Assembly: GCA_021770615.1 (NCBI GenBank)
Contig: JAETQR010000007.1
Span: 62,001-126,000 of the forward strand
Length of the DNA: 64,000 bases
Source of the DNA: Lachnospiraceae bacterium
GTDB lineage: Bacteria; Bacillota_A; Clostridia; Lachnospirales; Lachnospiraceae
Direction: 5' to 3'
Part shown: positions 42,207 to 62,380 of the stretch, piece after piece
Numbering within the stretch: the stretch's first letter is position 1
Layout of the letters: each line of letters opens with the position of its first letter
Translations under genes and position numbers: made by a program
Notes under the pieces: model-generated
The model's database searches: none
Seen by the model: the letters and a program-made list of their open reading frames with translations, nothing else
Told to the model about the DNA's origin: nothing

Positions 42207-42250
42207 CAAGTATCCTCCCCTGTCTGGAAATCCTTTTGTTTTAAACCGTA

Positions 42251-42958
42251 TTATGCACCTGATGTGACCGGAATCAGGCTTCCTGTAATATATTTTGCTT
42301 TATCAGATAAAAGAAAATCTACAAGATATCCTATATACTCAGGTTCGATGATACCTAAAGGCATTATCTCATCTATCTGTCCAAGACGATCCAGACCTCT
42401 CTGAGTCATTTCCGTATTTACTATATGCGGCAAAATGGCATTTACGCGTATTTTTCTTCTAATAAATTCTTTTGATGTCGTTTCTATGGCAGAATTTAAC
42501 GCCGCCTTTGATGCAGAATAAGCACACTGCCCAGATACATTTACTTTTGCCGCCATGGAAGAGATAGCAACAATAGATGCCCCATCATGTGAATACTTTC
42601 TCTTATAAAAAAATTTTGTCAATTCAACAAAGGCCATACAATTTAATTTAAAAAGATATTCCATCTTCTTCATATTGCAGGTTTTTACAGGAGAATTAAA
42701 TATTGCTCCTGCACAATGTACTAACCCATCCAATTTTATACCCTTACTGATACAAAACTGGTAGATTGATTCTACATTATCCAGAATGCTCAAATCAAAG
42801 ACAATATAAGCAGTATTTTCTTTATATATAGCATGGAGTTGTTCCAGTTTTTCTTTATTTCTTGCCACCATAACTACATAATAATTATTTTGAAGCAAAA
42901 TCTTTGTAGTAGCATAACCGATACCCGATGTTGCACCTGTAACTAGAATATTTTTCAT
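42251..42958 (-). CDS. SDR-family oxidoreductase
   Basis: 235 residues from the ATG at 42958 (GGGGG site; the frame extends to 42970). TGATSGIG (7-14) and YSASK (AYSASKAALNSAIE) are intact. Closely related to the other SDRs of the cluster. It is placed between two GNAT-like paralogues, and is probably a beta-ketoacyl-ACP reductase. Confidence 0.87.
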   Translation of the reverse strand: MKNILVTGATSGIGYATTKILLQNNYYVVMVARNKEKLEQLHAIYKENTAYIVFDLSILDNVESIYQFCISKGIKLDGLVHCAGAIFNSPVKTCNMKKMEYLFKLNCMAFVELTKFFYKRKYSHDGASIVAISSMAAKVNVSGQCAYSASKAALNSAIETTSKEFIRRKIRVNAILPHIVNTEMTQRGLDRLGQIDEIMPLGIIEPEYIGYLVDFLLSDKAKYITGSLIPVTSGA

Positions 42959-42973
42959 GTTTACCCCCATATA

Positions 42974-43795: not shown

Positions 43796-43810
43796 GCAAA
43801 GACCACCTTT

Positions 43811-44878: not shown

Positions 44879-45111
44879 TACTCCACTTTGCCTCCGTTTT
44901 TATTGATAACTGCTATGATACTCTCAACATTCTGAAAATTTTCCGGTAAAACATCAAGACCATCGATTACGATTCCAAATGTACTCTCGATCATCTCCAC
45001 TAAAGATACGACATCAAAAGAATCCAAATATCCATCTCCAATAAAATCCTCACTACTTTCAAAATCAAACTCCGGCCTGATTTCTTTTAACAATTCTAAT
45101 ATCTGCTGCAT
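44878..45111 (-). CDS. Acyl carrier protein (2 of 6)
   Basis: 77 residues. Phosphopantetheine serine S31 in DGYLDSFDVVSLVE. Nearly the same as the ACP at 58658-58888 (shared IRPEFDFE, EDFI-DGYLDSFD, VLPENF/ILPENF). Both lie beside paralogous adenylation genes, so ACP and loader were probably duplicated together. Confidence 0.9.
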   Translation of the reverse strand: MQQILELLKEIRPEFDFESSEDFIGDGYLDSFDVVSLVEMIESTFGIVIDGLDVLPENFQNVESIIAVINKNGGKVE

Positions 45112-45114
45112 TAC

Positions 45115-46644
45115 TCATTCTCCTCCATCAATATATATTTTTTTCAGTGCTTTTCTATCAATTTTTCCATTATCATTATATGGCATCTCATCCAACAGGA
45201 TATACTTTGCCGGAATCATATACCGGGGCAGGATATTTCCCAAATATTTCTTTATATCCAACTCAGTAACACCCTGATCTGCATTACAAAATGCAACAAT
45301 CGCACTTTGCTCCGTATCATAAATACAGCATGCATTGTATACTTCATCAAAGCTTAAGATTGCAGTTTCAATTTCTCCTAACTCAATCCGGTATCCCATA
45401 TGCTTTATCTGAAAATCCTTTCTGCCATCAAACATAATTTCGCCATATCGGTTATAGTGCGCCAAATCTCCCGTACGATATATTTTTTCACTATAATGAG
45501 GATTTAAGGGGTTTTGTACGAATGCCTCTGCCGTCTTTTCCGGGTTATTATAATACCCTACTGCCAAACTTGTTCCCCGAACACATAACTCACCCATTGC
45601 ATCAGTCTCTGTAATTTCCTCATCCTGATCATTTAATAAAATAATCTGTGTATTATTACATGCAATTCCAATCGGAAGTGGTTCCTCATCCGTAAATTCC
45701 CGGTCTATAACATAACAGGAACAAACATCTGTAATCTCAGTGGGTCCATATAAATTAGCATATAGCGCATCCGGCAATAGGCGACGCCAATAATTTAAAT
45801 GCCTGTTTGGCATAACTTCTCCGCAAAACAGGACTTTTCTTATACAGGAACAATCAATCTTTTCCAATAAACCACTATTGGCCACTCCTATTAAAGCAGA
45901 TGGCACCCAGAAAATAAAATTAATCTCATTCTCTTTTATATACTCCAACAACTTGGCAGTAAATGTAAAATACATTTCAGGAGTTATGTACAGATGTGCA
46001 CCACAGCTCATACATAAATATATATCCAGAATAGAATTATCAAAGTAAAATGGAGCCTGGTTAGCAATTTTAGTGTCGTTGGTGATCTCAAATTTTTCCC
46101 CCGCCCAGTCAATATAATCTATAATACTTCTATGCGTAATAGCAACCCCTTTTGGTATTCCAGTTGAGCCTGATGTAAAGAAAACATAAGCAAGATCTGT
46201 ATCTATGATTTGGCTATTTAACTGATCGCCATTATCATGATCAATGCTAAAATCCAAATCCTCGACATACAGGATCTTTTCTGTTTCCACCCCATGATCT
46301 GTTAATTTTTTCCCACTTTTCCGATCCGTAATAATAACTTCCGGCATCAAACATTTCATAATCGATGCAGCCTTTTCAAAAGGAAACTTTACATCTGTCG
46401 GTGTATAGTAATTGCCACTATAAAGTATTCCCGCAAAAGAAACTAATGTCATCACCGATTTGGGTAAATAAACTAATACTGGAATCTTTCTTTTTTGTAT
46501 CTTCTTCGCGATGCCATCTGCAATACACAAAGCCATTGATTTCCATTCACGAAACGTTATACTTTGCTCCTCATCAGTAAGCGCCACTTTATCAGGAAAG
46601 CGCTGTACGGTCTCCTCCAAATAGCATAGTACCGAATTTCTCAA
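45115..46644 (-). CDS. Amino-acid-type adenylation enzyme (DltA/NRPS A-domain-like)
   Basis: 509 residues with a TTG start at 46644. This start is chosen because AAGGAGG lies 7 bases ahead and because the paralogue at 58934 begins at the same place (both continue -N-S/T-VLCYLEE/K). Motifs: FFTSGSTGIPKGVAITH, FYFDNSILDIY, NLYGPTEITDVC, YRTGDLAHY, GRKDFQIKHMGYRIELGEIE and the terminal GKIDRKAL lysine. It should activate an amino acid (or small acid) and load it on the ACP 3 bases downstream. The substrate is unknown. Confidence 0.88.
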   Translation of the reverse strand: MRNSVLCYLEETVQRFPDKVALTDEEQSITFREWKSMALCIADGIAKKIQKRKIPVLVYLPKSVMTLVSFAGILYSGNYYTPTDVKFPFEKAASIMKCLMPEVIITDRKSGKKLTDHGVETEKILYVEDLDFSIDHDNGDQLNSQIIDTDLAYVFFTSGSTGIPKGVAITHRSIIDYIDWAGEKFEITNDTKIANQAPFYFDNSILDIYLCMSCGAHLYITPEMYFTFTAKLLEYIKENEINFIFWVPSALIGVANSGLLEKIDCSCIRKVLFCGEVMPNRHLNYWRRLLPDALYANLYGPTEITDVCSCYVIDREFTDEEPLPIGIACNNTQIILLNDQDEEITETDAMGELCVRGTSLAVGYYNNPEKTAEAFVQNPLNPHYSEKIYRTGDLAHYNRYGEIMFDGRKDFQIKHMGYRIELGEIETAILSFDEVYNACCIYDTEQSAIVAFCNADQGVTELDIKKYLGNILPRYMIPAKYILLDEMPYNDNGKIDRKALKKIYIDGGE

Positions 46645-46680
46645 ATTTTTTCCTCCTTCCACATATACATCTTAATAAGA

Positions 46681-46899
46681 TTACTGCATAACAGCCATCA
46701 GGTCAGAAACTGTTTTACATTTAATGATTTCACTTGCATGAGGCATCTTGCCAAAATTTTCATCCATAACTGAAATTACAGATAAAACAGCAACCGAATC
46801 CCATGTTTCAATTTCTTCAAGTACCATATCCTCGTTTAATTCTTCTACCTCCAGCTCAAGAATATCTGCGATTACCTCCATTTTTTCCTGATCAGACAT
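46681..46899 (-). CDS. Acyl carrier protein (3 of 6)
   Basis: 72 residues, S35 in ETWDSVAVLSVIS. Paralogue of the ACP at 55532-55750 (shared WDSVAVLSVIS and KTVSDLM/KTVSELM). AAGGAGG precedes the ATG. Confidence 0.88.
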   Translation of the reverse strand: MSDQEKMEVIADILELEVEELNEDMVLEEIETWDSVAVLSVISVMDENFGKMPHASEIIKCKTVSDLMAVMQ

Positions 46900-46954
46900 A
46901 TTTCAAATCCTCCTTCAAATTTAAATGATTTTTATATTAACTAGCTAATAAGAG

Positions 46955-47950
46955 CTAATTGCTATAATGATAATCTGTGAAAATCACAGGTAAGATATTT
47001 TTCGTATCTACTTCAATGTATACATCAGCCCATGCTAACCCTACGCCAAAACCACTTAATAATAAACGCACATTAGTCTTTTCCTTAAGTCGGTCAACAT
47101 TATGGCATATAGTAAGAGGAAGGGATGCTGTTGATGTATTTCCATATTCCTCATAAGACGTCAGTATCTTTTCTGGTGCAATATTACATTCATTTGCAAT
47201 ACCATCCAATATAAGTTTTTGTGCCTGGTGTATTACATAATAGTCAATTTCCTGCTCTTTGATCTGGAAATGATTCCTTAAGTCATTAATACTTTGTGCT
47301 GCTTCTGTCAAAGAAAAGAGCAAGATTTCATTTCCATCCATATAAAATTCCCCATTTAAGGATCTTGTAAGAAGATGATGTCTTTTGCCATCTGTCTTTT
47401 GAAAATAATAAAAACTTTTTTGATCCACTGTCTCAATCGCTGTAGCTGATGCCCCATCCCCAAACAGCAATATATCACTATCAATTACTTCATTCGGTTC
47501 ATAATACTGTCCATCTCCAACTAAAAGCAACCCTTTCCCGCCAGTATTATTCAACAATGCCGCAACAATCTGTAAACCACTTACATACCCGGTACATCCC
47601 AGATTTACATCAAATGCCAGGCAATCTTCCCCAATATTAAGACGTTTTTGTATGATCATCGCAGTAGATGGTGTACAAACATCCGGCGACTGGGTAACAA
47701 ATACTAAAATCCTGATTTCATCTTTGCTCCAGGCTAATTGTTTCATAAGTTTTTCAGCTGCGACACATGCCAAACCTGAAGCACTCTGTGATTCTCCACA
47801 GATATGCCGAAAATGAATACCCGTCAGTGAAACCTGTCTCTTTATCCGTTTTGTGCCAAGTGCCCCTGCAAGTTCCATATTATCAACTCTGTTCACAGGA
47901 ACCGCAGAGGCTATACCACGGATGCAGATATCTGAATATTGCCCAAACAA
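46955..47950 (-). CDS. KAS III-type ketoacyl synthase
   Basis: 331 residues with a TTG start (GAGGTGG site 7 bases ahead). Triad intact: Cys119 (NLGCTGYVSG), His241 (VIHQAQ) and Asn271 (EYGNTSTAS). The HQAQ and NLGC variants set it, with the enzyme at 48746, in a subgroup distinct from the HQPN pair (43811, 56597). It lies between an SDR and an ACP gene. Confidence 0.87.
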   Translation of the reverse strand: MFGQYSDICIRGIASAVPVNRVDNMELAGALGTKRIKRQVSLTGIHFRHICGESQSASGLACVAAEKLMKQLAWSKDEIRILVFVTQSPDVCTPSTAMIIQKRLNIGEDCLAFDVNLGCTGYVSGLQIVAALLNNTGGKGLLLVGDGQYYEPNEVIDSDILLFGDGASATAIETVDQKSFYYFQKTDGKRHHLLTRSLNGEFYMDGNEILLFSLTEAAQSINDLRNHFQIKEQEIDYYVIHQAQKLILDGIANECNIAPEKILTSYEEYGNTSTASLPLTICHNVDRLKEKTNVRLLLSGFGVGLAWADVYIEVDTKNILPVIFTDYHYSN

Positions 47951-48004
47951 TTTATCACCACCTCATACATTTTCATTCCATATTCTATATCAAACAATGC
48001 CACC

Positions 48005-48736
48005 TTAAAAGATAGCACCCGCTGACACCGGAATGCAGGCTCCTGTTATATAAGATGACTTATCTGAAATCAAAAATTCTACAAGATATGCAATCTGCCT
48101 GGGTTCGATCATACCAAGCGGCTGACCAGCAACTTTATTATCAAGATCTCCCAGAACTTCATCCATACGTGCTGCCATAGGAGTATCTACAAAAGTTGGC
48201 AAAATAGCATTAACACGCTGGTGCCTTCTCAGAAACTCTTTTCCCATCACCTTAACAGATGCATTCAATGCAGCTTTGGATGCGGAATAAGTACACATTC
48301 CTTTCCCACATGTTTCTGCTGCTGACGATGAAATTGCAACAACCGACGCTCTGTCATTGGAATATTTCTTTTTATTAAAATATTTGCCAAGTTCGACAAA
48401 AGAATAATAATTGATTGCTGTTACTTCCTTCATAACTTTTACATCATTTGCACGAACCGGAATATCATTATTTATTCCCGCACAATGCACCATGCCATCC
48501 AGCTTAATCCCCTTATCCCTGCAACTGATAAAAATCTCTTCAACATGTTCGAGTTCTGACAAATCATATGACATGACCAAACTCTCGCCATTTAACTTCC
48601 CTGAAATCTGATCTAGCCTATCCTGATTTCTGGCCACCAAAACAACAAAATAACCTTGTTCTGATAAATACTCACTGGTAGCAGCTCCAATACCGGAAGA
48701 TGCACCTGTCACTAATATCGCTTTCCCCATTTTCAT
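48005..48736 (-). CDS. SDR-family oxidoreductase
   Basis: 243 residues. TGASSGIG (9-16) and YSASK (TYSASKAALNASVK) intact; VTGA..ITGACIPVSAGAIF typical of ketoreductases. ATG at 48736 or, two codons on, 48730. It follows the KAS III-SDR fusion gene by 9 bases. Since that fusion's own SDR part looks dead, this enzyme may supply its reduction step. Confidence 0.87.
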   Translation of the reverse strand: MKMGKAILVTGASSGIGAATSEYLSEQGYFVVLVARNQDRLDQISGKLNGESLVMSYDLSELEHVEEIFISCRDKGIKLDGMVHCAGINNDIPVRANDVKVMKEVTAINYYSFVELGKYFNKKKYSNDRASVVAISSSAAETCGKGMCTYSASKAALNASVKVMGKEFLRRHQRVNAILPTFVDTPMAARMDEVLGDLDNKVAGQPLGMIEPRQIAYLVEFLISDKSSYITGACIPVSAGAIF

Positions 48737-48745
48737 CTCACTCTC

Positions 48746-50422
48746 TCAGTTATTAAATGTAATAACTGTCTCTGTAATATATCTGGATGCTTTTGACAGC
48801 AGGAAACTCTGCGTCTGGGATATGTGGATCGGCTTTTTCATCGTTTCCGGACATTCCCGGTCAAGATATAACTCGATCCATTCTTTTCCGTCCTCAGTGA
48901 TCTGGACAATATCAATCTCACTGTCTACATATGTAATGCCGTTAATGCGAACGGATTGTTCCTCTGTCCTGCAGCTGCTCCCTTTGAATTTCGATTCCAT
49001 CGTTTGTTTATGCGTCTCCAATTCACTTACAGATGAAACTGCTTCCAGGACAACAACCGAAACAAGTTCCTGACCGTAACCAGAGACAAGTTCCTGACTA
49101 AGATAAGATAATATTTCTGCAGACACCTCAGCTGGAATGACTACACCATCAAGTGGCAGATCCTTTTCCTTACAATACTCCAGAACAGCATGGATCGTTT
49201 TCTTGTTGATCGTTTCCATGACAAAAGAATCGGAATCCAAAAACAAATCACTCTGAATTTCCTTTAATTTCTCAGGATCTTTTCCTGCCATGATCACCAT
49301 AGCTGATCTGCCATTATCAAAACGACTGAGCCATTCTCCCATTTCCGTGTCCGCACACAATACGAGAATATTTTTGTCATGCAATCCGCATGCAGGTTTC
49401 TTATCCTCATCATAATGCTCATTTGTCTCAATGATCGGTAAGATGTTTTCTGTATCAATTTCTGTATAAATACAACCCCAGGAAAGCCCCACGCCAAATC
49501 CACACAACAAGAGATTTGCCTTTTCCCTTTTCTGGATCTCTTCCCTGTTTGCGCACACAGTAACAGGAACTGACGTCCCGGAAGTATTACCATAGTGGCG
49601 CAGTGAACGAAGTTCTTTTTCAGCCGGAATATCACAGGCATCTATGATATTATCCAATATCAGATCCTGTGCCTGATGAAATATGTAATGATCGATGTCG
49701 TCCTCGGAAATATCAAAATGTTTCCGAAAATGAATGACTCCATCTGAAACATCATTAATGGCAAAAGAAAAAACAGCGGCTCCATCCATCTGGGAAGGAC
49801 GGCCTTTATATCCAATAATGGCATCATATCCATTGCCGTCAGACATATTCATAAAATACAATGGATGCTGTTCTACCTTCTCGATTGCAATCGCAGCACC
49901 AGCTGAACCAAACAGCATATCATGTGCAATATCATCCGGTTTTAAAGACGCTTCCGGATTTCGTATCACTCCAGCGGTATCCCCGATCAATAATAATGCT
50001 TTATCATGTGTTTCACATGTCTGAAGCAAAGCAGAGACAGCATGTACACCTACATTGAAACTTGAGCATCCAAGATTCAGATCATAAACCAGACAATCCT
50101 TCCCTAACCCAAGTCTTTTATGCAGAAAAAAAGCAGTAGAAGGATGGTTATAATTTGGCCCCTGTGTAATGAAAAGTAAGACTTTTATTTCCTCTCGTTT
50201 CCACTGTAACTTTTCCAGTAATGGGAGCGTAGCAGCATAACACAAATCAGAAGTCCTCTGGTGCTTACCGGATATGTGCCGCTCCTCTACACCGGTGATC
50301 TTGATCTGCTTTTTTGCTCGTCTTTTACCGATAACATTAGCAAAACTCATATTATGTTCGATATATTCGGGAACAGCCGAACACATTCCCTGAATCTTAA
50401 TATTATCAAATTTTCCAATCAT
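48746..50422 (-). CDS. KAS III-type synthase fused to a degenerate SDR-like domain
   Basis: 558 residues from the ATG at 50422 (AGAAAGG site; the longer frame runs back into the ACP gene). Residues 1-335 are a complete KAS III: Cys119 (NLGCSSFNVG), His249 (IFHQAQ), Asn279 (HYGNTSGTS). Residues ~350-558 have SDR shape but no function: the glycine motif reads CADTEMGE in place of TGxxxGIG, MAGKDPEKLKEI stands where ARNxEKL does, no YxxxK is present, and the end FLLSKASRYITETV matches the usual FLISDKSSYITGA. The domain may now serve structure or substrate capture. Confidence 0.85.
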   Translation of the reverse strand: MIGKFDNIKIQGMCSAVPEYIEHNMSFANVIGKRRAKKQIKITGVEERHISGKHQRTSDLCYAATLPLLEKLQWKREEIKVLLFITQGPNYNHPSTAFFLHKRLGLGKDCLVYDLNLGCSSFNVGVHAVSALLQTCETHDKALLLIGDTAGVIRNPEASLKPDDIAHDMLFGSAGAAIAIEKVEQHPLYFMNMSDGNGYDAIIGYKGRPSQMDGAAVFSFAINDVSDGVIHFRKHFDISEDDIDHYIFHQAQDLILDNIIDACDIPAEKELRSLRHYGNTSGTSVPVTVCANREEIQKREKANLLLCGFGVGLSWGCIYTEIDTENILPIIETNEHYDEDKKPACGLHDKNILVLCADTEMGEWLSRFDNGRSAMVIMAGKDPEKLKEIQSDLFLDSDSFVMETINKKTIHAVLEYCKEKDLPLDGVVIPAEVSAEILSYLSQELVSGYGQELVSVVVLEAVSSVSELETHKQTMESKFKGSSCRTEEQSVRINGITYVDSEIDIVQITEDGKEWIELYLDRECPETMKKPIHISQTQSFLLSKASRYITETVITFNN

Positions 50423-50435
50423 AAGCTTACCTTTC

Positions 50436-50651
50436 TTACTTTTGCAGATAATCAATAATATCCTGTACAGTGACAAAATTCTTTATCTCATCGGAAGATA
50501 ATTTTTTTCCATAATTCTTTTTTGCCTCAGCCATAAGTGATAGTGCACTCAGAGAATCCCACTCCTCCAGATCGTCTAAAATAGTAGTAGCCTCAAGTGT
50601 CCCTTCATCCACATCCATGATCTCCTCAAGCATTTCGATTAATTCGTTCAT
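50436..50651 (-). CDS. Acyl carrier protein (4 of 6), first gene of the left arm
   Basis: 71 residues, S33 in LEEWDSLSALSLM. It starts the minus-strand arm, 178 bases after the recombinase stop. AGGAGAG precedes the ATG. AT-rich upstream sequence has TATATT and TACTAT but no good -35, so no convincing promoter of its own is seen. Confidence 0.87.
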   Translation of the reverse strand: MNELIEMLEEIMDVDEGTLEATTILDDLEEWDSLSALSLMAEAKKNYGKKLSSDEIKNFVTVQDIIDYLQK

Positions 50652-50664
50652 TTTTTCTCTCCTT

Positions 50665-50793
50665 TTATTTATTTTTTACTGGAAAATATAGTATTATCAC
50701 TTCTTTGATTATTTCTTCCCATCTTCCTTTCCAGTTAATTTGACATACTGAGTTTCGCATAAAAAAACTGCCCCCACCACCAGGCACAGCCAT
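50665..50793 (-). CDS. Possible 42-residue peptide between recombinase and ACP gene
   Basis: An ATG at 50793 follows AAGGAG after 4 bases and opens a 42-codon frame (MAVPGGGGSFFMRN...) ending 13 bases before the ACP start. Coding is uncertain. A weak hairpin with T7 lies inside it, so a leader-peptide role is conceivable. Confidence 0.25.
   Translation of the reverse strand: MAVPGGGGSFFMRNSVCQINWKGRWEEIIKEVIILYFPVKNK
50761..50789 (-). terminator. Weak possible terminator or attenuator ahead of the left arm
   Basis: On the minus strand TGCC and GGCA pair (4-5 bp, G-rich 8-base loop) and are followed by TTTTTTT. The stem is short, so read-through from the recombinase into the left arm is expected to be at least partial. 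Confidence 0.25.
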
Positions 50794-50829
50794 ATCTCTC
50801 CTTATTCCATGCCTCCGTGCAACCTTTTT

Positions 50830-51783
50830 CTATGCGCATCCCTGCATATAATTATCCTTAAGATAAAAACTTAAGGGTGTTGTGTTGATATCCGCATGTC
50901 CTAAAAGCTCACTGATCGTTTTGTAATCGCAGCCGCTTTCAACCAGACGGGTAGCAAATGTATGACGCAGGCCATGAAAAGTCACATATCTGGTTCCATT
51001 GTTCTCCATCAGGCGGTCATAATAAGCCCGCAACGTGCGTGGCTCAATAAATTTGTCCACTTTCCCAGTCAACAGGTAAACTTTCGGGGCTTCCTGATAT
51101 TTTTTTATAGCAGACAGACAGTTCTTTGGTATTGGAATATACCTGTCTGATTTAAGTGATTTCGGAGAAGTAACGATCACCTTACTCTTGCCGACACCAT
51201 TCTCTTTTGTATATATACGCTGTAATGTCTTATTTATATGAACCAGCCCTCTTGGAATATCAATACATTCCCAACGGAGGGCACAGATTTCGCCAATCCT
51301 CATCCCTGTCGACAATGCCAGCATTACCCCTAAACTTTTCAAAGAGGTTTGCTTTTTAAGACAATTCATTATCTCAAATTCCTCATTTAAAGTCAAGTAG
51401 TTTTCCCGCTGTCTTCCCGGTCTGTTCTGCACATTATCCGGAACGGGATACTGATACCTCGCTTTTCCCAGATTTATATAACCTTTTTGCTCCGCTTTTC
51501 CTAATATCCCCAGCCACAATGCCATGATATCCTTTACAGCCTTTTCTGATAAATACCCTGTTCCGTCCTTCCTCTTTTTTCTGGAAAGAAAAAGGATAAA
51601 TTCCTGATTATCCTCGTGACTGATCGTTTCCAGTGTTCGTTTTCCGAAATAGGGAAGTATATGATTCTCAATCGTTACAGAATATGTGGCAAATGTGGAT
51701 TCTTTCACAAAAGGCTTATTTTCTTCCTGCCATGTCCGGATCCAGCTTTCTATTGTTATCCTATTGTTTTTTGTGCTTTGCAT
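50830..51783 (-). CDS. Tyrosine recombinase/integrase of the invertible segment
   Basis: 317 residues. N-terminal SAM-like core-binding domain (about 8-100), catalytic domain with Arg162 (STGMRIGEI), His270/Arg273 (HGLRHTFATRL), His296 (LLGHADINTT) and Tyr307 (LSFYLKDN). The His296-Tyr307 spacing is two residues longer than the usual nine. The last 12 codons run through the left inverted repeat and the Tyr codon is inside its 7-bp spacer. After inversion the reading frame would continue for 46 other residues instead of NYMQGCA. It has its own extended -10 promoter. Expected role: flip the segment 50852-53708. Confidence 0.9.
   Translation of the reverse strand: MQSTKNNRITIESWIRTWQEENKPFVKESTFATYSVTIENHILPYFGKRTLETISHEDNQEFILFLSRKKRKDGTGYLSEKAVKDIMALWLGILGKAEQKGYINLGKARYQYPVPDNVQNRPGRQRENYLTLNEEFEIMNCLKKQTSLKSLGVMLALSTGMRIGEICALRWECIDIPRGLVHINKTLQRIYTKENGVGKSKVIVTSPKSLKSDRYIPIPKNCLSAIKKYQEAPKVYLLTGKVDKFIEPRTLRAYYDRLMENNGTRYVTFHGLRHTFATRLVESGCDYKTISELLGHADINTTPLSFYLKDNYMQGCA
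50852..50876 (-). repeat. Left inverted repeat (25 bp) / predicted crossover site
   Basis: Read on the minus strand: CCTTAAG, spacer TTTTTAT, CTTAAGG, then ATAA minus shared bases as far as position 50852; identical over all 25 bases to 53684-53708 read on the plus strand. Symmetric 7-bp arms around a 7-bp spacer are the classic core layout for tyrosine recombinases. Identity stops abruptly on both sides. Confidence 0.9.
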
Positions 51784-51808
51784 TATCTTATCCTCCGTTT
51801 TTTCAAGT

Positions 51809-51837
51809 ATTATAGCACCATGTATGGATTACATGAA
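51809..51837 (-). promoter_or_regulatory. Recombinase promoter with dyad
   Basis: TGCTATAAT (extended -10) with TTCATG 17 bases upstream on the minus strand. A dyad CATGTAT (51819-51825) / ATACATG (51842-51848) brackets the -35 box and could bind a repressor. This promoter lies inside the invertible segment and points outward through the left repeat. Confidence 0.65.
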
Positions 51838-51860
51838 TGCAATACATGTTCAATAAACGG

Positions 51861-51895
51861 AAAAATACAGCCATAGTTTCATCTACAGCTGTATT
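51861..51895 (-). terminator. Terminator between AAA/nuclease-like gene and recombinase
   Basis: AATACAGC and GCTGTATT form an 8-bp stem (16-base loop) followed by TTTTCC on the minus strand, 22 bases past the stop at 51918. It uncouples the recombinase from the gene upstream. Confidence 0.65.
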
Positions 51896-51917
51896 CAACA
51901 GGCGATTTTTCTTAAAA

Positions 51918-53582
51918 TCACCCAATCAATACCTCTTTTCCCCGAAAAGCAAAACCATACTTACGGATATGTTCCTTCTCTATGCCCTGAGCAAGGAGCG
52001 TTTGCTCATACTTCCTTTCTTCGATCTGCCTCAGTGCCTCCCGCACGGTTTCTTCCATGGAGGATTCCTCTTTGGGATCATATACTTTAAATTCCAGAAT
52101 AATTCCATCTTCCTTTCGATCCAATGGCTTTAACATCACATCATACCGGCCAAACCCGCTTTCTCTATTTGAGGTCACTTCATAGCGGTCTTCAAGATCA
52201 ACCAGAAGCCCTAGCACAAACCCATGGTAAAATTTCTCTGGCATCGCAGCTTCTGAAGGATGGGTTCCCCCATCAAAGGAACTGAACATATTCAATGAAA
52301 TCCGGTTCATATAGGCATTCATCTCCTTCCGATCGCCTCGTAAAAGAGCTTTGACAAAATCATTATAATCACCGCCGCTTTCATCAAACCAGTCCCGAAC
52401 CATATCTTCAAATGTCTGTTTCACTTCGTAATTCGTAAGTGAAAGTTCATATTCTTTTCCATGATCCTTTACTATTTTCAAATACCCCGACGTCAGAAGA
52501 AGACTCCAAACTGCGTATTCGTTCCTTTCTAATTGGTTAAATACCATTTCTTCATTAATTCTGCTTCGAATCGTTTTACCGGACAAGAGAAGTTCAAACT
52601 GCATTTTGATTGTTCTACTTCCGCCCCGAATCAGATTGCTGACCAGTCCATTCGAGCTTGTATTTGCCCAGTATGGCTTTAGTTTCCCCTCATCCAGAAA
52701 ATTGATGATTGACCACGGATTATAAATATCCCGCATATTTCCTATCGTGAAACCATCATACCACTGCTTTACGTCCTCTTTGTTTGTCATTCCAAATTCA
52801 TCCATAGCGCAAAAAACTTCCTCTTCTGTAAAACCAAAACAAGAAGCATAACTAGTTGAAGTCATGGTTATTACTTTTAAGTTATTTAAGTCTGAAAACA
52901 AAGACTCTTTGCTAACCCTTGTGATGCCAGTCATCACTGCCCTCTCCAGATATGGATTTGTTTTAAATGTGTTGTTAAACAGATTCCTTGTAAAAGAAAC
53001 CAGTTCCTTCCAATATCCTCCCATATATGCCTCCTGCAATGGAGTATCATATTCATCCAAAAGGATAATGACTTTCTTTCCATAATAACGACACAGATAA
53101 TCACATAACCGATGCAGTGCCATTGGTGCATCTTCCGGCTCCATATTATCTGCCATTTGTTTATAAATCTTCTTCTCTCCTTCTGTCAGCACATCCGAAT
53201 CCAGTAAATAGTAATTTTTTATATACTGATTCTGCAGGATTTGACAGAATCGACGTATAGCTATATCATGGACAGTCTCTTTCATTCCGGCAAAGGATAA
53301 GAAAATTACCGGATATGTTCCCTGCAATTCTTTATATTTTTCTTCTCCCCAGATATTCAATCCCTCAAAAACCTCGCCCTGTTCTTTATATTTTATGCTA
53401 AAAAAACGCTCCAGCATGTTCATATTTAACGTTTTCCCAAATCGTCTTGGACGAGTAATGAGAGTTACTTTATCATCGCTTTCCCACCATTCCTTTATAA
53501 AAGATGTCTTATCTATATAAAAATTATTTTTTTTAATCATTTCTTCAAAATCCTGTGCGCCGATTGATACTGTTCTTGGCAT
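51918..53582 (-). CDS. AAA-ATPase-like / PD-(D/E)XK nuclease-like protein (DUF1703 type)
   Basis: 554 residues. Starts MPRTVSIGAQDFEEMIKKN with ITRPRRFGKTLN (about 42-53) as Walker A-like loop and VIILLDEYDTPL (about 152-163) as Walker B. The C-terminal part has GRYDVMLKPL and GIILEFKVYDP (Asp and Glu-x-Lys of the PD-(D/E)XK core, about 480-505). The family is abundant and multicopy in gut Lachnospiraceae and Bacteroidetes; its role is not established. TTGGAGG precedes the ATG. It lies wholly inside the invertible segment. Confidence 0.88.
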   Translation of the reverse strand: MPRTVSIGAQDFEEMIKKNNFYIDKTSFIKEWWESDDKVTLITRPRRFGKTLNMNMLERFFSIKYKEQGEVFEGLNIWGEEKYKELQGTYPVIFLSFAGMKETVHDIAIRRFCQILQNQYIKNYYLLDSDVLTEGEKKIYKQMADNMEPEDAPMALHRLCDYLCRYYGKKVIILLDEYDTPLQEAYMGGYWKELVSFTRNLFNNTFKTNPYLERAVMTGITRVSKESLFSDLNNLKVITMTSTSYASCFGFTEEEVFCAMDEFGMTNKEDVKQWYDGFTIGNMRDIYNPWSIINFLDEGKLKPYWANTSSNGLVSNLIRGGSRTIKMQFELLLSGKTIRSRINEEMVFNQLERNEYAVWSLLLTSGYLKIVKDHGKEYELSLTNYEVKQTFEDMVRDWFDESGGDYNDFVKALLRGDRKEMNAYMNRISLNMFSSFDGGTHPSEAAMPEKFYHGFVLGLLVDLEDRYEVTSNRESGFGRYDVMLKPLDRKEDGIILEFKVYDPKEESSMEETVREALRQIEERKYEQTLLAQGIEKEHIRKYGFAFRGKEVLIG

Positions 53583-53631
53583 GCTTACACCTCCAATCCA
53601 CTGCTATGGGATATTTTTTACTATTGTACTT

Positions 53632-53660
53632 AGTTTAACATGGCATCATTGTTTTTACAA
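53632..53660 (-). promoter_or_regulatory. Promoter of the AAA/nuclease-like gene
   Basis: Minus-strand TTGTAA, 17-base spacer, TAAACT, about 50 bases before the start. No convincing plus-strand promoter is seen in 53583-53708, so the right arm appears promoterless in this orientation. Confidence 0.5.
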
Positions 53661-53683
53661 CTGCCTTTTTCCGTCTTGCGATG

Positions 53684-53708
53684 CCTTAAGTTTTTATCTT
53701 AAGGATAA
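53684..53708 (+). repeat. Right inverted repeat (25 bp) / predicted crossover site
   Basis: Exact inverted copy of 50852-50876. Its last bases AAGGATAA are followed at once by the ATG of the GNAT gene, so the repeat also supplies that gene's ribosome binding site. Confidence 0.9.
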
Positions 53709-54701
53709 ATGCTCACAATCAGAAGGGCTACGTATGATGATATACCTAGCATTATGCAGTTTATGGATAAATATTGGAAGAAAGGAAATATTCTTGCTAA
53801 GAATCGAGAATTTTTTGAGTGGCAGTTCCGGGATGAGGATAAGTTAAATATGTTTCTCGGGATTGATGAAGACAACAATAAAATCTATGGAATTGTAGGA
53901 GCGGTGGTATATAACCAAAGTTCTAATCCGGATATTTCTGGATGTACATGGCAGGTTATCAGAAGTAATAATCCAATATTGGGTCTTGAATTGGCGGAAT
54001 ATATGAATCAGCAATTAAATATCAGGTATAACTGTGGAGCAGGACTTAGCAAAAAATCATTGAAAATAAATAAGTTGTTGGGTTGTGCGATAACTTCAAT
54101 GGATCATTATTATCGTTTGGCAGACATAGAAAATTTTAAAATTGCAAAAATCAAAAAAAAAGTAATTCCTACAGTAAAAGGAACAGGGTACCGCTTAGAA
54201 CATTTGAATACTGTAGAGGAAATGAAGCAAATCATTTCAGAAGATGCCCTTGCAAAATGTATTATGAGTAAAGATTACATGTATATAGAGAAACGATACT
54301 TTAAACATCCTGTATATCAGTATAATATATGGAAGATTGTTGATGAAGAAAAAAAAGCACATTCTGTTCTTATTACAAGAGATGAGACTGTGCAAGATAG
54401 GAAAGTATGCAAAATTATTGATTTTTATGGGGAATTGGAAGATTTGAGCCGGATCACAGCGGCGTTAGATCAATTAATACGAGAAAGAAACTATGAGTTT
54501 GTGGATATTTATTCCTATGGAGTTTCAACAGAACTTTATAAACAAGCTGGTTTTTGCGAATGTAATGAAAATAGCGAAAATATAATTCCGAATTATTTTC
54601 ATCCATTTGTTCAGGAAAATATAACGTTGAAAATGGTGGATTACAGGATACCCGGGTTGCGGCTGTTTCGAGGAGATGGTGATCAAGATAGGCCATGTTA
54701 G
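53709..54701 (+). CDS. GNAT-family N-acyltransferase, first gene of the right arm
   Basis: 330 residues. N-terminal MLTIRRATYDDIPSIMQFMDKYWKKGN is the GNAT opening; FEWQFRDEDKLNMFLGIDEDN and IYGIVGAVVYN follow, then a second GNAT-like half (about 175-310; SVLITRDETVQDRKVCKIIDF). Proteins like this occur in surface-polysaccharide clusters and acylate amino sugars. Its start codon abuts the right inverted repeat, whose AAGGA serves as ribosome site. Codon use is AT-rich like the rest of the right arm. Confidence 0.75.
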   Translation: MLTIRRATYDDIPSIMQFMDKYWKKGNILAKNREFFEWQFRDEDKLNMFLGIDEDNNKIYGIVGAVVYNQSSNPDISGCTWQVIRSNNPILGLELAEYMNQQLNIRYNCGAGLSKKSLKINKLLGCAITSMDHYYRLADIENFKIAKIKKKVIPTVKGTGYRLEHLNTVEEMKQIISEDALAKCIMSKDYMYIEKRYFKHPVYQYNIWKIVDEEKKAHSVLITRDETVQDRKVCKIIDFYGELEDLSRITAALDQLIRERNYEFVDIYSYGVSTELYKQAGFCECNENSENIIPNYFHPFVQENITLKMVDYRIPGLRLFRGDGDQDRPC

Positions 54702-54729
54702 TTGTTCAGAACTACAAGGAGGTCAGAAA

Positions 54730-55500
54730 ATGAATAGTGACACACAAAAAAGACGTGCTGTTCTTATTGTTGGTGCTTCTTCTGGCATTGGAAGAGCTTG
54801 CGCAGAGTCAATGGCAGATAGCGAAAATATTTTATATTTGGTTGCAAGAAATAAAGAGGCGTTAAAAGAAATGCAGGAATGCTTACCAGGGATAATTCAC
54901 ATTCTTCCCCATGATTTAAATGATATAGATGGGATAAAGAATATTTTTGATAGAATAAAAAAAGACAAGATAAAACTGAACGGTTTTGTATATTCTGCTG
55001 GTATGGATTCCTTTTCTCCTGCAAAAGTAATATCTATTAAATCTATGCAGAATGTTATGAATATTAATTGTTTTGCATTTTGTGAGTGTGCGAGATGTTT
55101 TTTTAATCGACGGATATCAGAAGACGAAGCATCTATAGTGGCAATATCTTCTATTGCAAGTGTTTTGTTCGAAAAGGGACAGATGGCATATACGGCTTCT
55201 AAAGCTGCATTAAATTCAGTGGTGAAAACAATGTCTCAGGAATTTGCTGGCAGACGTATTCGTGTCAATGCGATTTTGCCAGCTGGTGTGGCAACTACAA
55301 TGGCTGATAGCAAAGGCATGGCATTGGAAGGGATGTATGATGCAGAGGATATACAAACGCCTGCGCCCCAAGGGCACACACAAAATTGGGGGGCAATTCC
55401 TCCCAGTATTATAGCAGAGAATGTTAATTTCCTGCTTTCAGATGCTTCCGCATATACTACGGGAGAATTGTTGACAATAGGAGCAGGGTACTCTTATTAA
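54730..55500 (+). CDS. SDR-family oxidoreductase (right arm)
   Basis: 256 residues from the ATG at 54730 (AAGGAGG site; the frame extends to 54676). GASSGIG (about 15-21) and YTASK (AYTASKAALNSVVK) intact; an insertion of about 20 residues (LEGMYDAEDIQTPAPQG) sits where substrate loops lie. Probably reduces the product of the right-arm KAS III. Confidence 0.87.
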   Translation: MNSDTQKRRAVLIVGASSGIGRACAESMADSENILYLVARNKEALKEMQECLPGIIHILPHDLNDIDGIKNIFDRIKKDKIKLNGFVYSAGMDSFSPAKVISIKSMQNVMNINCFAFCECARCFFNRRISEDEASIVAISSIASVLFEKGQMAYTASKAALNSVVKTMSQEFAGRRIRVNAILPAGVATTMADSKGMALEGMYDAEDIQTPAPQGHTQNWGAIPPSIIAENVNFLLSDASAYTTGELLTIGAGYSY

Positions 55501-55531
55501 TATAAATTAAAATTAGAAAGGAAGTTATAAA

Positions 55532-55750
55532 ATGAGTGAACAGGAAAGAATTGAAATTATTGCAGAGATATTGGAAGTAGAGGAGGAAGAAGTGATTCCG
55601 CAGAAAGAATTACAAGAGTATGATACATGGGATTCTGTAGCGGTTTTGTCTGTTATTTCTATTATGAATGAAAAATTTGAAAAATTTCCTTCTGCAAAAG
55701 AGGTTCTGAAGAATAAAACCGTATCTGAACTGATGGAATTTTTACAATAG
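55532..55750 (+). CDS. Acyl carrier protein (5 of 6)
   Basis: 72 residues, S35 in DTWDSVAVLSVIS; counterpart of the left-arm ACP at 46681-46899. AGAAAGGAAG precedes the ATG. Confidence 0.88.
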   Translation: MSEQERIEIIAEILEVEEEEVIPQKELQEYDTWDSVAVLSVISIMNEKFEKFPSAKEVLKNKTVSELMEFLQ

Positions 55751-55769
55751 TAGGAGAGGAAAACAGAAA

Positions 55770-56600
55770 ATGATAAATAGATGGAAGCAGGAAATGGCAC
55801 GCATAAAGCGTGAAAAAGGTACAGCAATCACTAATTTTACCATGTCATCTGTAGAGGAAGAAAAGTGTGACCATATATATTCCACAGATACTTATTATGC
55901 GACTTTATACTGGGATATTGACAAGTATGTATTAAATTTTGTGGTTGCGTCACTGGAAGATTTACATAATTTGATAGAGTCAATACAAGGTAATACTGTA
56001 ATATCTATATTGTATAAAGAGGATTGTGAACTAAATTCCTTTTTTACATCAATGGGGGTGGAATTGTATGCAACGTACCAAAGAACCACCATTTGCTATA
56101 AATCAAATCCATATTTGATTCCTGAACAAAGTAAAAGAAGGCAGCTTCTTCCTAAGATGTATGATCCACAATGCGGAGAATTTCCTCACGAGAAAGATGC
56201 CGAAGAAATTGACCGCTTATGCCGGAAAGTATTTGATCCTTTATGTGATGATATGTTTACGATTGAGGAATGGAAGGAGAAAATCAAAAGTAAAAATGTT
56301 CTGGTCTATAAAGATGATGGAGAAATAACAGCTCTTTATGTATGGTGTTTGGAAGGTAAGAAATTATATAGTAATATGTCTGTGAACATCGGGGCAGCCA
56401 ACACTTTATATAATATGGAACGCCGTGTGTTTGAGGAAATGTGGAATAGTGGTATACGAGTGTTTTATGGCTGGGGCAATTTAAAAAATACAAATGCAAA
56501 GAAACATGCCATACCAGAATCTTCGGTTTTGAAATGTGCAAAATCCATCAATAGACTTTTTTGCGATATTTATTATAAAAGTGATGGAGGAAAAAAATGA
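55770..56600 (+). CDS. Uncharacterised GNAT-like two-part protein, paralogue C
   Basis: 276 residues. Same family as 41388 and 42974: EKDAEEIDRLCRKVFDPL, SKNVLVYKDDGEITALYVW, EGKKLYSNMSVN, TLYNMERRVF and FYGWGNLKNTNAKKH. Its end overlaps the KAS III start (ATGA), as tight a link as seen for any pair here, so the two products very likely act on the same acyl chain. Confidence 0.62.
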   Translation: MINRWKQEMARIKREKGTAITNFTMSSVEEEKCDHIYSTDTYYATLYWDIDKYVLNFVVASLEDLHNLIESIQGNTVISILYKEDCELNSFFTSMGVELYATYQRTTICYKSNPYLIPEQSKRRQLLPKMYDPQCGEFPHEKDAEEIDRLCRKVFDPLCDDMFTIEEWKEKIKSKNVLVYKDDGEITALYVWCLEGKKLYSNMSVNIGAANTLYNMERRVFEEMWNSGIRVFYGWGNLKNTNAKKHAIPESSVLKCAKSINRLFCDIYYKSDGGKK

Positions 56601-57661
56601 AAACAAAAATAAAGGGCAAACGTATTTCGAGTGTACTAACTGTTTTACCACAGAATGAATACGGATTTGAAGAAAGTATTCTTGCTGAAAGTATGAAACG
56701 TGTTGAACGTTTGCAAAAGATAATGGGATTTAACAAACGAAGGCGGGTAAAAAAAGAAACCTTAGTCTCGGATTTGTTTGTTTATGCATTAGACTATTTA
56801 TTTGATAATGGAATAATTCAAAAAAATGAAATAGGTGCAGTTATTTCCACTTCCTTTACACCTGACTTTTATGTTCCAAATAGTTCAAGTGTTTTGCACA
56901 GTTTAGCACAACTGCCAAAGGATGTTCTGGTTATGGATATTCCACAGGGGTGCGCTGGATATCTTTTAGGATTGCTTCAGTCTTGCCTGCTTTTGGATAA
57001 AATGGAAAAAAAGGTTCTTCTTTTTACAGGTGAAATATTTAACCGGAAATATACAGAAGAAGAGGCAAAATCTTCTGTTCCTAATTTTGGAGGGGATGCA
57101 GCCAGTGTAAGTATTATTGAAAACTGTGATTCATCAGAAGAAATCTCTTTTAATTTTATGGCAAATGGGAAAGACGGAGATGTGTTGTTAATGCCGGGAG
57201 GTGCTTTCCGGCATCCTATGTATGCAGGGGAACCACTTGTTTTTATGGAAAATGGAGAGGAAAAACAGTATCTTGGTACAAACATGGAGGGAACATCGGT
57301 ATTCAATTTTATTCAACGAGATGTACCAGTCCTGATTCACGAACTTTGCGAATTTTCAGGGGTTTCATCAGATGCTATTGACTACTATCTGTTTCACCAG
57401 CCAAATCGGTATATATTAGAGAAACTGGCGGAACGAATGAAAGTAGATAAGGGCAAAATGCCAATGAATATTGTTGAAAAATATGGAAATTCCAATGCCA
57501 GTACAATTCCAATGGTGATAACAGATAATTATGCAGATATTCTCCAAAAAGAACATAAAAAATGCTGTCTTTCCGGATTTGGTTCTGGTTTATCATGGGC
57601 AGCGGCAATAATGAATTTGGGTGAACTGGATGTATGTAAAATGCTTCTATCACCATTTTGA
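56597..57661 (+). CDS. KAS III-type ketoacyl synthase (right arm)
   Basis: 354 residues. Triad intact: Cys119 (IPQGCAGYL), His267 (LFHQPNRY), Asn298 (KYGNSNAST). Paralogue of the left-arm enzyme at 43811-44878. GGAGG lies 6 bases before the ATG. Confidence 0.9.
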   Translation: MKTKIKGKRISSVLTVLPQNEYGFEESILAESMKRVERLQKIMGFNKRRRVKKETLVSDLFVYALDYLFDNGIIQKNEIGAVISTSFTPDFYVPNSSSVLHSLAQLPKDVLVMDIPQGCAGYLLGLLQSCLLLDKMEKKVLLFTGEIFNRKYTEEEAKSSVPNFGGDAASVSIIENCDSSEEISFNFMANGKDGDVLLMPGGAFRHPMYAGEPLVFMENGEEKQYLGTNMEGTSVFNFIQRDVPVLIHELCEFSGVSSDAIDYYLFHQPNRYILEKLAERMKVDKGKMPMNIVEKYGNSNASTIPMVITDNYADILQKEHKKCCLSGFGSGLSWAAAIMNLGELDVCKMLLSPF

Positions 57662-57678
57662 AGGGCAGGGCAAAACAA

Positions 57679-58626
57679 ATGGATGTTAATTTTAGAAATG
57701 TACAAATCAAAGGAATATTAACAGTATTACCAGAGAAAAAGATAATAGATAACAGTGGTACAGAACGTTATTGTGTTAAAGATACCAGTTATACAACCGA
57801 CTTATTTGTTTATGGAGTTAATACATTATTGCGGGATAAATTAGAAAAAAAGGATATAGGTGCAATCGTGACAGCATCTTTTACTCCCGATTATATTACT
57901 CCGCAATTAAGTTTTCGGGTTCATGGTGCTTTAGATTTGCCGGAAGATATCTTATGTACAGATCTTATTGAGGAGAACAGTAGTTACATAAAGGGACTAT
58001 TGGATTCGATGCTGATTGCTGAACATATGCCGGACAAAAAAGTATTGTTCTTATGTGGAAATATCAGTGATAAAAGAAAGAATGATACGGTACCATTTTA
58101 TGGCAATGATGGTGCAGCTATTACGGTTATTCAGTGTTCGGAACAGGAAAATATTTGCTCACTTTCCTGTTCTATTGATGAAAGCCATATTGATGATATA
58201 AAAATGCATTCATGTGGTTTTTATGATTTGTTTCATGAGAAGGGAAATTTATATACAAATAATACAGAGACAGTATCTAAATTAATGCAGGAAAAAATTC
58301 CTGAAATAATAACCCGTCTTATAAAAAACGCGAAAGTAAGTATAGAGGATATTGATTTTTTCTCTATACCAAAAGTTCCCGGTTTATCCATACAAAAAAT
58401 AGCAGATGAACTGGAGATTAGGTATGAATCCATCGCTCAGGATGACAGTGGCATGAATTGTTCCATTATCAATCCACTGCACATTACGGAAGGATACAAA
58501 AGACAGACGGTAACAGATCAGACAACATGTCTTCTTATTGGATATGGTGCTGGCATTAATTATGGCGGAGCTGTCTTACAGTTAAAAGGATTGAAATTTT
58601 GTGATACTATTTATTCAGATTTATAA
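57679..58626 (+). CDS. Catalytically dead KAS III paralogue
   Basis: 315 residues from the ATG at 57679 (AAGGGCAGGG ahead; the frame starts at a TTG at 57658). It aligns with the preceding KAS III along its length, but the triad is lost: EENSSYIKG has Asn100 where Cys should be, SIPKVPGL replaces FHQPNR, and GMNCSIIN replaces GNSNAST. The frame is intact and the fold seems kept, so it is more likely a partner subunit (a chain-length-factor-like role) than a pseudogene. Confidence 0.8.
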   Translation: MDVNFRNVQIKGILTVLPEKKIIDNSGTERYCVKDTSYTTDLFVYGVNTLLRDKLEKKDIGAIVTASFTPDYITPQLSFRVHGALDLPEDILCTDLIEENSSYIKGLLDSMLIAEHMPDKKVLFLCGNISDKRKNDTVPFYGNDGAAITVIQCSEQENICSLSCSIDESHIDDIKMHSCGFYDLFHEKGNLYTNNTETVSKLMQEKIPEIITRLIKNAKVSIEDIDFFSIPKVPGLSIQKIADELEIRYESIAQDDSGMNCSIINPLHITEGYKRQTVTDQTTCLLIGYGAGINYGGAVLQLKGLKFCDTIYSDL

Positions 58627-58657
58627 TGATGCACATAGCATTAGAAATGGAGGAAAC

Positions 58658-58888
58658 ATGAACGAGAAAATATTAGCTATTTTGAAGGATATCAGACCCG
58701 AATTTGATTTTGAGACAAGTGAAGATTTTATTGAAGATGGATATCTTGATTCTTTTGATATTGTAACACTTGTATCGGAATTAGAAGATACTTTTGGTGT
58801 GCTTATAGATGGTCTGGCTATTCTACCAGAGAATTTTAATACAGTAGAAGCTATCGCTGATGTTATCAGGAATTCAGAAAAAGGATAA
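58658..58888 (+). CDS. Acyl carrier protein (6 of 6)
   Basis: 76 residues from the ATG at 58658 (GGAGG). S32 in DGYLDSFDIVTL. Counterpart of the left-arm ACP at 44878-45111, likewise next to an adenylation gene. Confidence 0.9.
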   Translation: MNEKILAILKDIRPEFDFETSEDFIEDGYLDSFDIVTLVSELEDTFGVLIDGLAILPENFNTVEAIADVIRNSEKG

Positions 58889-58933
58889 ATTCATTAAATA
58901 AATGCCGATTTTGATTTGAGAGGTGAATGATAA

Positions 58934-60460
58934 ATGCAAAACACAGTTCTTTGCTATTTAGAAAAAAGCGCACATGAATATAAAGATAAAACGGCCGTTA
59001 CTGATATCAATGGTGGTATGTCTTTTGGAGAAATGAGGGATCTGGCAGTAAAGACAGCAAATGCCATTATGGGACTTCATATTGGAATACAGAGACCCGT
59101 TTTAGTCTTTCTTCCTAAATTGAAGGAAAGTTTTTCTGTCTTTATGGGAATCGTTTATTCCAGAAATATCTATGTGCCTACAGATGTCAAATATCCCGGT
59201 GAGAGGATTCTCTCTCTGATCGAGATATTGAAACCGGGTCTGATTATTTCAGATAAAAAATATGAACAGAAATTATCTGAATATGGAATTGATGTTCCCG
59301 TACTGTTATTAGAAAATATCAGGGAAACTCCCTGTAAGTTAAATGGTTCTGAATTATGCAGTCGGAGTCTTCTATCCGATTTAGTTTACATAATTTTCAC
59401 ATCTGGTTCCACTGGAGCGCCCAAAGGGGTCAGCATCAGTAATCTGAACATAATAGAATATATTGACTGGGCAACAGAAGTGTTTCAAAGTGATGAGAAT
59501 ACGGTAATGGGAAGTCTGGCTCCATTGTATTTTGATTTATCTACACATGAGTTGTATACATGTCTGGCAAAGGCATCCACTCTTGTTATGATACCAGAAA
59601 AATACAAGGCATTTCCGGCAGCCATACTTAAGCATCTGAAAGAACAGCACGTTAATTTTTTGTACTGGGTTCCATCTGCCTATGTGAATGTTGCAACATT
59701 TAACCTATTAGAAGCTATCGAACTGGATGAAATTAAAACGATGGTCTTTGGTGGTGAGGTTATGCCTGTCAAAACACTGAATTACTGGAGAAAGAACTTG
59801 CCGGCACTATCCCTTATTGCCAATATGTATGGTCCGACTGAAGCAACAGTGAACTGCACCTATTATATTGTTGACCGTGAATTTAGTGATGATGAGTTTT
59901 TGCCTTTGGGGAAAGCGTGTGATATAAAAGAAATTCTTGTTTTGGATGAGGAAGAAAAAGAAATCACGTCTGAACAGCCAGGGGTAGCAGGTGAACTTTG
60001 TGTCTGTGGTACATCTCTGTCAAGAGGTTACTGGAATAATGTTGAGATGACCAGCAAATATTTTGTCCAAAATCCATTGAGCCCATATTTACCAGAAATC
60101 ATGTACCGTACGGGGGATCTTGTATATTACAATGAACAGGGAGAACTCGTTTTTTCAGGCAGAAAGGATTTTCAGATTAAACATATGGGATATCGCCTTG
60201 AACTTGGCGAAATTGAAAGCGCTATTTTACGAACACAAATAGTAGATAATGCCTGTGTGTTATATGATTCCATGAATAAATGTATTGTTTTGATCTATTG
60301 CGCTGCCAGTGAAATTGATAACGTTTTACTGGCAAAGGAACTGGCAAATATTCTTCCCCAGTATGCAATACCTTCCAGATATGAATACATTCGTTCCTTC
60401 CCTATGACGGACTCAGGTAAGATAGACCGCCAATATCTTTGTGACAAGTATTTAAAATAA
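58934..60460 (+). CDS. Amino-acid-type adenylation enzyme (right arm)
   Basis: 508 residues. IFTSGSTGAPKGVSIS, LYFDLSTHELY, NMYGPTEATVNC, YRTGDLVYY, GRKDFQIKHMGYRLELGEIE and GKIDRQYL are the A-domain motifs. It is paralogous to 45115-46644, but the substrate-pocket segment differs (DLSTHELY versus DNSILDIY), so the two may load different acids. The amino acid made by the next three genes is a good candidate substrate. Confidence 0.88.
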   Translation: MQNTVLCYLEKSAHEYKDKTAVTDINGGMSFGEMRDLAVKTANAIMGLHIGIQRPVLVFLPKLKESFSVFMGIVYSRNIYVPTDVKYPGERILSLIEILKPGLIISDKKYEQKLSEYGIDVPVLLLENIRETPCKLNGSELCSRSLLSDLVYIIFTSGSTGAPKGVSISNLNIIEYIDWATEVFQSDENTVMGSLAPLYFDLSTHELYTCLAKASTLVMIPEKYKAFPAAILKHLKEQHVNFLYWVPSAYVNVATFNLLEAIELDEIKTMVFGGEVMPVKTLNYWRKNLPALSLIANMYGPTEATVNCTYYIVDREFSDDEFLPLGKACDIKEILVLDEEEKEITSEQPGVAGELCVCGTSLSRGYWNNVEMTSKYFVQNPLSPYLPEIMYRTGDLVYYNEQGELVFSGRKDFQIKHMGYRLELGEIESAILRTQIVDNACVLYDSMNKCIVLIYCAASEIDNVLLAKELANILPQYAIPSRYEYIRSFPMTDSGKIDRQYLCDKYLK

Positions 60461-60481
60461 TGATGACAGGAGTGTTTAATA

Positions 60482-62375: not shown

Positions 62376-62380
62376 AATAA

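Follow-up and report, generated by a model that had tools for sequence, protein, structure and literature searches.

Positions 50852-53708 of a 64,000-nt stretch of DNA from a Lachnospiraceae bacterium (assembly GCA_021770615.1, contig JAETQR010000007.1, positions 62,001 to 126,000 of the forward strand; hereafter the window) probably represent a truncated copy of an inversion switch. The switch is complete in relatives of the organism, where it would select between two divergent operons predicted to make acyl sugars. An initial annotation of the same DNA had pointed to a likely inversion switch that selects between divergent arms with acyl-glycan cassettes. The pair of sites with its recombinase in the relatives, the identity of the site spacers and the opposite orientations found among genomes all favor such a switch, but the working of the window copy is unsupported, as the conserved C-terminus of its recombinase and the outward promoter region are both missing. 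The mechanism first put forward fits the family better than it fits this copy.

The segment is bounded by two 25-bp repeats in inverted orientation (50852-50876 and 53684-53708) that are 100% identical and have 2,807 nt between them. Both display the layout CCTTAAG-N7-CTTAAGG with the same spacer, which agrees with the perfect inverted repeats, 7-bp palindromic arms and 7-bp spacer of the initial annotation. With a seed of 14, the whole window yields seven inverted pairs of at least 22 nt, of which only this one has complete identity, and the chance expectation for such a 25-bp pair is about 3e-6 at the window's composition. A looser scan of the window, tolerating three mismatches to the site, found 2 occurrences against 2.2 expected; this is no evidence by itself, whereas the perfect matches are. 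The repeats are genuine and resemble recombination sites. They had also been placed around a recombinase gene. A tyrosine recombinase of 317 residues (50830-51783, minus strand; PF00589 and PF14659) is indeed present, but the left repeat falls within the 3' end of its truncated open reading frame (ORF), which extends 22 bp past the repeat. The right repeat directly precedes the gene that opens the right arm.

Scanning for the recombinase with one genome per species uncovered seven further loci (genomes G001 to G007), with recombinases 67-78% identical to that of the window. All seven belong to a single genus, in which they account for 7 of 39 species (E <= 1e-90). The window belongs in or near this genus, because its rho gene matches all 39 genomes, at 71-81% identity in the best stretches. 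In each relative, two copies of the site in inverted orientation enclose a full-length recombinase gene. The contigs of six relatives continue past both sites, and in these, just as in the window, the genes beside either site point outward, with divergent predicted acyl-sugar operons outside the sites; in G006, one side extends for only 70 bases. Six of the seven genomes contain exactly two sites and G006 contains three, and the reversed control pattern is absent from all seven. This differs from a shufflon, with its several invertible segments and more than two sites, and the third G006 site lies in a chimeric-looking contig.

The spacer sequences and the gene order around the sites both bear on inversion. 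Four spacer types occur, TTTTTAT (G001, G002, G003 and the window), TTTCCAT (G004 and G005), TTTCTAT (G006) and TTTTCAT (G007), and yet the two spacers within each genome are identical in 8 of 8 cases, the window included; the site arms are nearly fixed. Tyrosine recombinases need spacer identity for strand exchange. Judged by the arrangement of the flanking genes, both orientations of the segment exist between species. The first 4.1 kb on the 5' side of the G004 recombinase are 93% identical to the 3' side of the G007 recombinase, the other arms match crosswise further in, and the two recombinases are 89% identical. Counts of reciprocal-best genes (at least 55% identity) on the same and on opposite sides are 0 and 7 for this pair. 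Opposite-side genes also outnumber same-side genes between the window and G002 (2 same, 11 opposite), G007 (0 and 4) and G003 (4 and 7), while the pairs G005-G007 (7 and 0) and G003-G007 (8 and 1) share an orientation.

Beyond the seven relatives, a slightly longer site pattern occurs in 3 of 397 genomes drawn from the family (G004, G261 and G296), and the G261 site was dropped as it appears to be an ordinary hairpin followed by T's. An order-wide recombinase search (392 genomes, E <= 1e-75) yielded G001 and G296 only among the matches listed; at most five candidates were scored in each of the 22 genomes listed, and the search may miss some. The G296 recombinase is more distant, with one in-frame stop in one reading and a 309-residue frame in another, and its sites combine the same arms with a different spacer, TTACTTC. 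Two G296 contigs end at sites with different left flanks, as expected if the assembler meets both orientations, and this genome lends weak support to inversion. No stretch of the viral contigs matched the recombinase peptide patterns. The window recombinase is closest to that of G001 (77-78%), and the window rho gene (11419-13002) shares 81% identity with G418, 77-80% with G004 to G007 and 73% with G001. This disagreement between recombinase and rho suggests that the switch may have moved between species.

A motif of the form TTAAG-N16-CCGATAT starts at the recombinase stop codon in all seven relatives, pointing outward with the site next to it. We take TAAA/G-N15-16-CCGATA to be the layout of a sigma-28 (SigD/FliA) promoter. 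Because the motif points outward, one orientation of the segment would feed one arm and the flipped orientation the other. Across the seven genomes, TAAG-N15/16-CCGATAT has 40 matches compared with 21 for a backward control; seven of the 40 are the switches themselves, four sit 86-173 bp upstream of flagellin-domain matches and two precede genes that are presumably FliK-like. Flagellin and FliA (over its cut-off) are encoded in all seven genomes. Flagellin is found on the switch contig in four of them, 15 to 83 kb away, the farthest case being the chimeric-looking G006 contig. Some flagellin-domain matches lie in very long frames of 1645-1708 codons (G004:C10, G006:C8, G007:C3, G005:C3 and G001:C17), which are perhaps giant flagellins. 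An exact search of the window for the sigma-28 motif returned zero matches, and 18 matches with one mismatch are scattered through it. The claim that all recognisable promoters point to the left was not borne out: a scan of 50400-54200 gave 11 promoter-like sites against 13.5 in shuffles, and three of the 11 lie inside the segment on the plus strand.

The starts of the arms share further features. A conserved element around TGCANGGAGGCA is present in 11 of 16 arms, and in 9 of the 16 a leader with GGA motifs and the same hairpin followed by T's could be aligned (n = 9; the 3' arms of G002 and G006, which are without this terminator, were excluded, and the 5' arm of G006 is only 70 bases long). 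CANGGA motifs number 23 in the nine leaders, compared with 1.9 in shuffles, although the leaders are homologous and hence not independent, and the G004 leader alone is unexceptional. The left-arm leader of the window (50769-50851, minus strand) has three CANGGA motifs and a terminator-like hairpin at 50769-50786; a 42-codon ORF noted there by eye overlaps this hairpin and was judged spurious. Two CANGGA motifs are also found in five of the six flagellin leaders looked at, and all seven switch genomes have a CsrA gene. Flagellin is known to be under CsrA control in Bacillus and Clostridioides (PMC6529632, PMC8523840). We hypothesize from these sequence features that CsrA may control the arms. 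LoaP-type antitermination was considered for the leader and rejected, as none of the seven genomes has a match over the NF033641 cut-off; six have weaker matches.

The window copy is damaged at both ends of the segment. Its recombinase follows the relatives to residue 302, after which it ends in 15 residues that the site and the DNA just outside it encode; the relatives have 26 residues here, a stretch of constant length and largely conserved sequence. The tyrosine at the relatives' catalytic position is lost, and a site-coded tyrosine lies one residue further from the conserved histidine. The structure model of this protein, with a mean predicted local distance difference test (pLDDT) of 59.8, is too poor to use. 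A full-length protein 97% identical to the window recombinase exists, as seen among the best 120 of 4477 matches in a search that scored the 8000 candidates sharing most words. Compared with locus L001 of the relatives, the window lacks about 120 bp next to its left site, including the catalytic end of the recombinase and the outward promoter motif. On the other side, the right arm begins directly at the site, whereas the first genes lie 119-154 bases out in G001 (both arms) and in the 3' arms of G003 and G007; the 5' arms of G005 and G007 are likewise leaderless. Each gap has a site at its edge, and the two together would be explained by a single lesion spanning one site while the segment was flipped, with an inversion afterwards. 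Given the DNA lost at the left site and the leaderless right arm, the window copy is probably locked with its recombinase facing the left arm.

We propose that the recombinase would cut both CCTTAAG-N7-CTTAAGG sites and invert the intervening DNA, that sigma-28 (FliA/SigD) would start transcription just behind the recombinase gene and into the adjoining arm, and that entry into that arm would be gated by a leader in which CsrA-type GGA motifs are combined with a terminator. The arm products, made by NeuB/PseF/PseG-like and acyl-chain enzymes, would be acylated nonulosonates placed on flagellin. A sigma-28 promoter would thus flip between two complete acyl-nonulosonate operons and leave each cell with one acyl sugar on its flagellin, and in the window the site would have swallowed the recombinase end and frozen the choice. 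We give this full account an even chance of being correct. A role in flagellin glycosylation is probable but less secure than any other step; the grounds for it are the promoter motif, the leader, the genes of nonulosonate type and the PF01973 matches in six of the seven genomes. Nonulosonate glycans on flagellin are reported to be widespread in Clostridium (PMC13317340).

Several findings weigh against this account. The orientation difference is seen between species only, and some pairs give mixed or thin counts (G002-G003, 7 same and 6 opposite; G003-G004, 6 and 7; G004 and the window, 3 and 2), which we attribute to cassettes that also move between arms. The relatives are mostly draft metagenome assemblies, and the G006 contig looks chimeric at the sites. 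The leader is absent from five of the 16 arms, and the promoter motif exceeds its control only two-fold. The flagellar-gene counts cover switch-bearing genomes only. As for the Maf-like family PF01973, there is no match in G003, the matches in G001 and G002 are weak, and the family is not Maf-specific. The PseF/PseG-like and NeuB/PseI-like genes of the left arm score below the NCBIfam cut-offs. In the G006 contig (C8; L022 1-3021 and L006 1-97), the third site adjoins an N and a transposase-like gene, and pieces of leader are joined to the wrong arm; perhaps the contig is chimeric at the sites since the sample held both orientations.

The same switch could serve arms that make capsule or another surface polysaccharide, the sigma-28-like motif merely tying the glycan to motile cells. 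We consider this possible but doubtful. Capsule_synth and polysaccharide pyruvyl-transferase domains are present in the left arm, Maf-like genes are absent from the window and from one of the seven genomes, and the two-fold motif excess is compatible with such a role; on the other hand, the motif is common to flagellin promoters, flagellin shares the contig in four of seven genomes (one of them through the chimeric-looking G006 contig), and the arm contains NeuB/PseF/PseG-like genes. The least probable of the readings is that the repeats are not inversion sites at all and instead form a hairpin terminator or bound a mobile element. The terminator scan does list the site as a hairpin, the gene content of the segment varies, and the conflicting relatedness of recombinase and rho suggests transfer, but each genome has a single segment in the same setting, the repeats are inverted rather than direct, the spacers match within and not between genomes, and opposite orientations were found.

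Two other alternatives concern the window copy. If its gaps were assembly errors, the true copy would be complete and active. The full-length recombinase of 97% identity fits this, and invertible loci are hard to assemble, as the G006 and G296 contigs that break or look chimeric at the sites illustrate; apart from the gaps, though, neither the ORF nor the two 25-bp sites show irregularities, and the gaps are at different ends. We consider assembly error unlikely. We find it very improbable that the window recombinase still works through the site-coded tyrosine, so that every inversion would swap its C-terminal tail. The site codes for LSFYLKD in frame, with the tyrosine offset by a single residue, and both gaps would follow if the flipped segment had lost DNA to either side of one site and then inverted once, but the 26 replaced residues include the catalytic-position tyrosine and the following helix region.

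In the reading that we prefer, of a switch complete in relatives and truncated here, the window arms would be the two alternative targets. The left arm (31827-50651, minus strand) first encodes acyl carrier proteins (ACPs), 3-ketoacyl-ACP synthase III (KASIII) enzymes, short-chain dehydrogenases/reductases (SDRs), AMP-ligases and GNAT-like proteins, and further on Capsule_synth, PS_pyruv_trans and DUF4910 genes, a PseF/PseG-like fusion and NeuB/PseI-like genes. The right arm (53709-63565, plus strand), which extends towards the window end, encodes an SDR, KASIII enzymes, an ACP and an AMP-ligase, along with an acetaldehyde dehydrogenase, a 4-hydroxy-2-oxovalerate aldolase and an aminotransferase. 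The best cross-arm pairs are 44% (KASIII), 46% (AMP-ligase) and 39% (SDR) identical, in keeping with the divergent arms of paralogous genes described initially. The first right-arm gene (53709-54701, plus strand) is GNAT-like, and its product is predicted from a structure model (mean pLDDT 73.6) to be a tandem-GNAT acyltransferase; Eis-type GNATs and N-myristoyltransferases are its top matches in the PDB, with query-normalized template modeling scores of 0.42-0.52.

Within the segment, an AAA-ATPase_like/PDDEXK_9 gene (51918-53582, minus strand) is variable cargo, and a terminator-like hairpin (51863-51896, minus strand) from the terminator scan separates it from the recombinase gene. The same ATPase family is carried by the segments of L002 and L003 and not by those of the other five relatives. 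The smallest segments, of about 1.1 kb in four genomes, contain the recombinase alone, and the L001 segment has an extra gene that by eye resembles a metallo-beta-lactamase-fold hydrolase. Beside the ATPase gene of L003, inside the invertible segment (7205-7847), lies a pair resembling, again by eye, an antitoxin and a PIN-type toxin. Segment cargo varies between species. Elsewhere in the window, a 168-nt element occurs twice (11245-11412 and 14462-14629) with 94% identity, each copy edged by inverted repeats of about 23 nt; the two copies flank a UTP-glucose-1-phosphate uridylyltransferase gene and resemble a miniature mobile element. Two 50-nt direct repeats, 80% identical and 69 nt apart, are located at 19654-19772 within the coding sequence of a BspA-type leucine-rich repeat protein. 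An Rfam scan of the window gave zero matches at gathering score.

Promoter inversion by tyrosine recombinases has long been known; the system proposed here departs from earlier ones in that it would work in two directions, from a sigma-28-like promoter, on entire operons for acyl sugars. In the Campylobacter fetus sap inversion, one promoter is turned between two oppositely oriented targets, as we predict here, but these are S-layer protein genes and not biosynthetic operons. The Salmonella fljBA promoter is sigma-28 dependent and Hin is a serine recombinase, whereas the recombinase here is of the tyrosine type (PF00589), which sets it apart from Hin/hix. The predicted switch resembles Hin/hix in having an invertible segment with a recombinase gene and a putative promoter, and in its probable link to flagellar variation. 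Hin inverts the fljBA promoter, switching one operon ON or OFF and the other flagellin indirectly (PMC9368917), while here operons lie on both sides and the predicted targets are glycan genes rather than flagellin. The RecV switches of Clostridioides difficile (cwpV and the flagellar switch) share the tyrosine recombinase, inverted repeats and flagellar context, and phase-locked strains are known; RecV acts in trans on several short ON/OFF switches, after transcription initiation, and the flagellar switch spans 154 bp with 21-bp imperfect repeats (PMC5386303). Unlike in the RecV systems, the segment here carries its own recombinase gene, and a single promoter would serve both arms. Mpi of Bacteroides fragilis also inverts promoters before polysaccharide operons, at the capsular polysaccharide loci, and it flips many scattered promoters ON or OFF in trans (PMC5386303, PMC11868660), compared with the one local two-way segment described here. 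Among the papers listed by literature searches (at most 15 or 20 per search, mostly without subscription journals and preprints), none described a switch that selects in two directions between glycan operons by inversion.

Because the site arms are fixed and the spacer differs from genome to genome while being constant inside each, these loci form a natural series on partner-site choice by a tyrosine recombinase. If the proposed mechanism is true, the window illustrates a switch decaying to a fixed state, and antigenic variation through the flagellar sugar would become testable. The genus would then pick between two whole biosynthetic pathways, beyond simple ON/OFF control, by means of a flagellar-regulon promoter.

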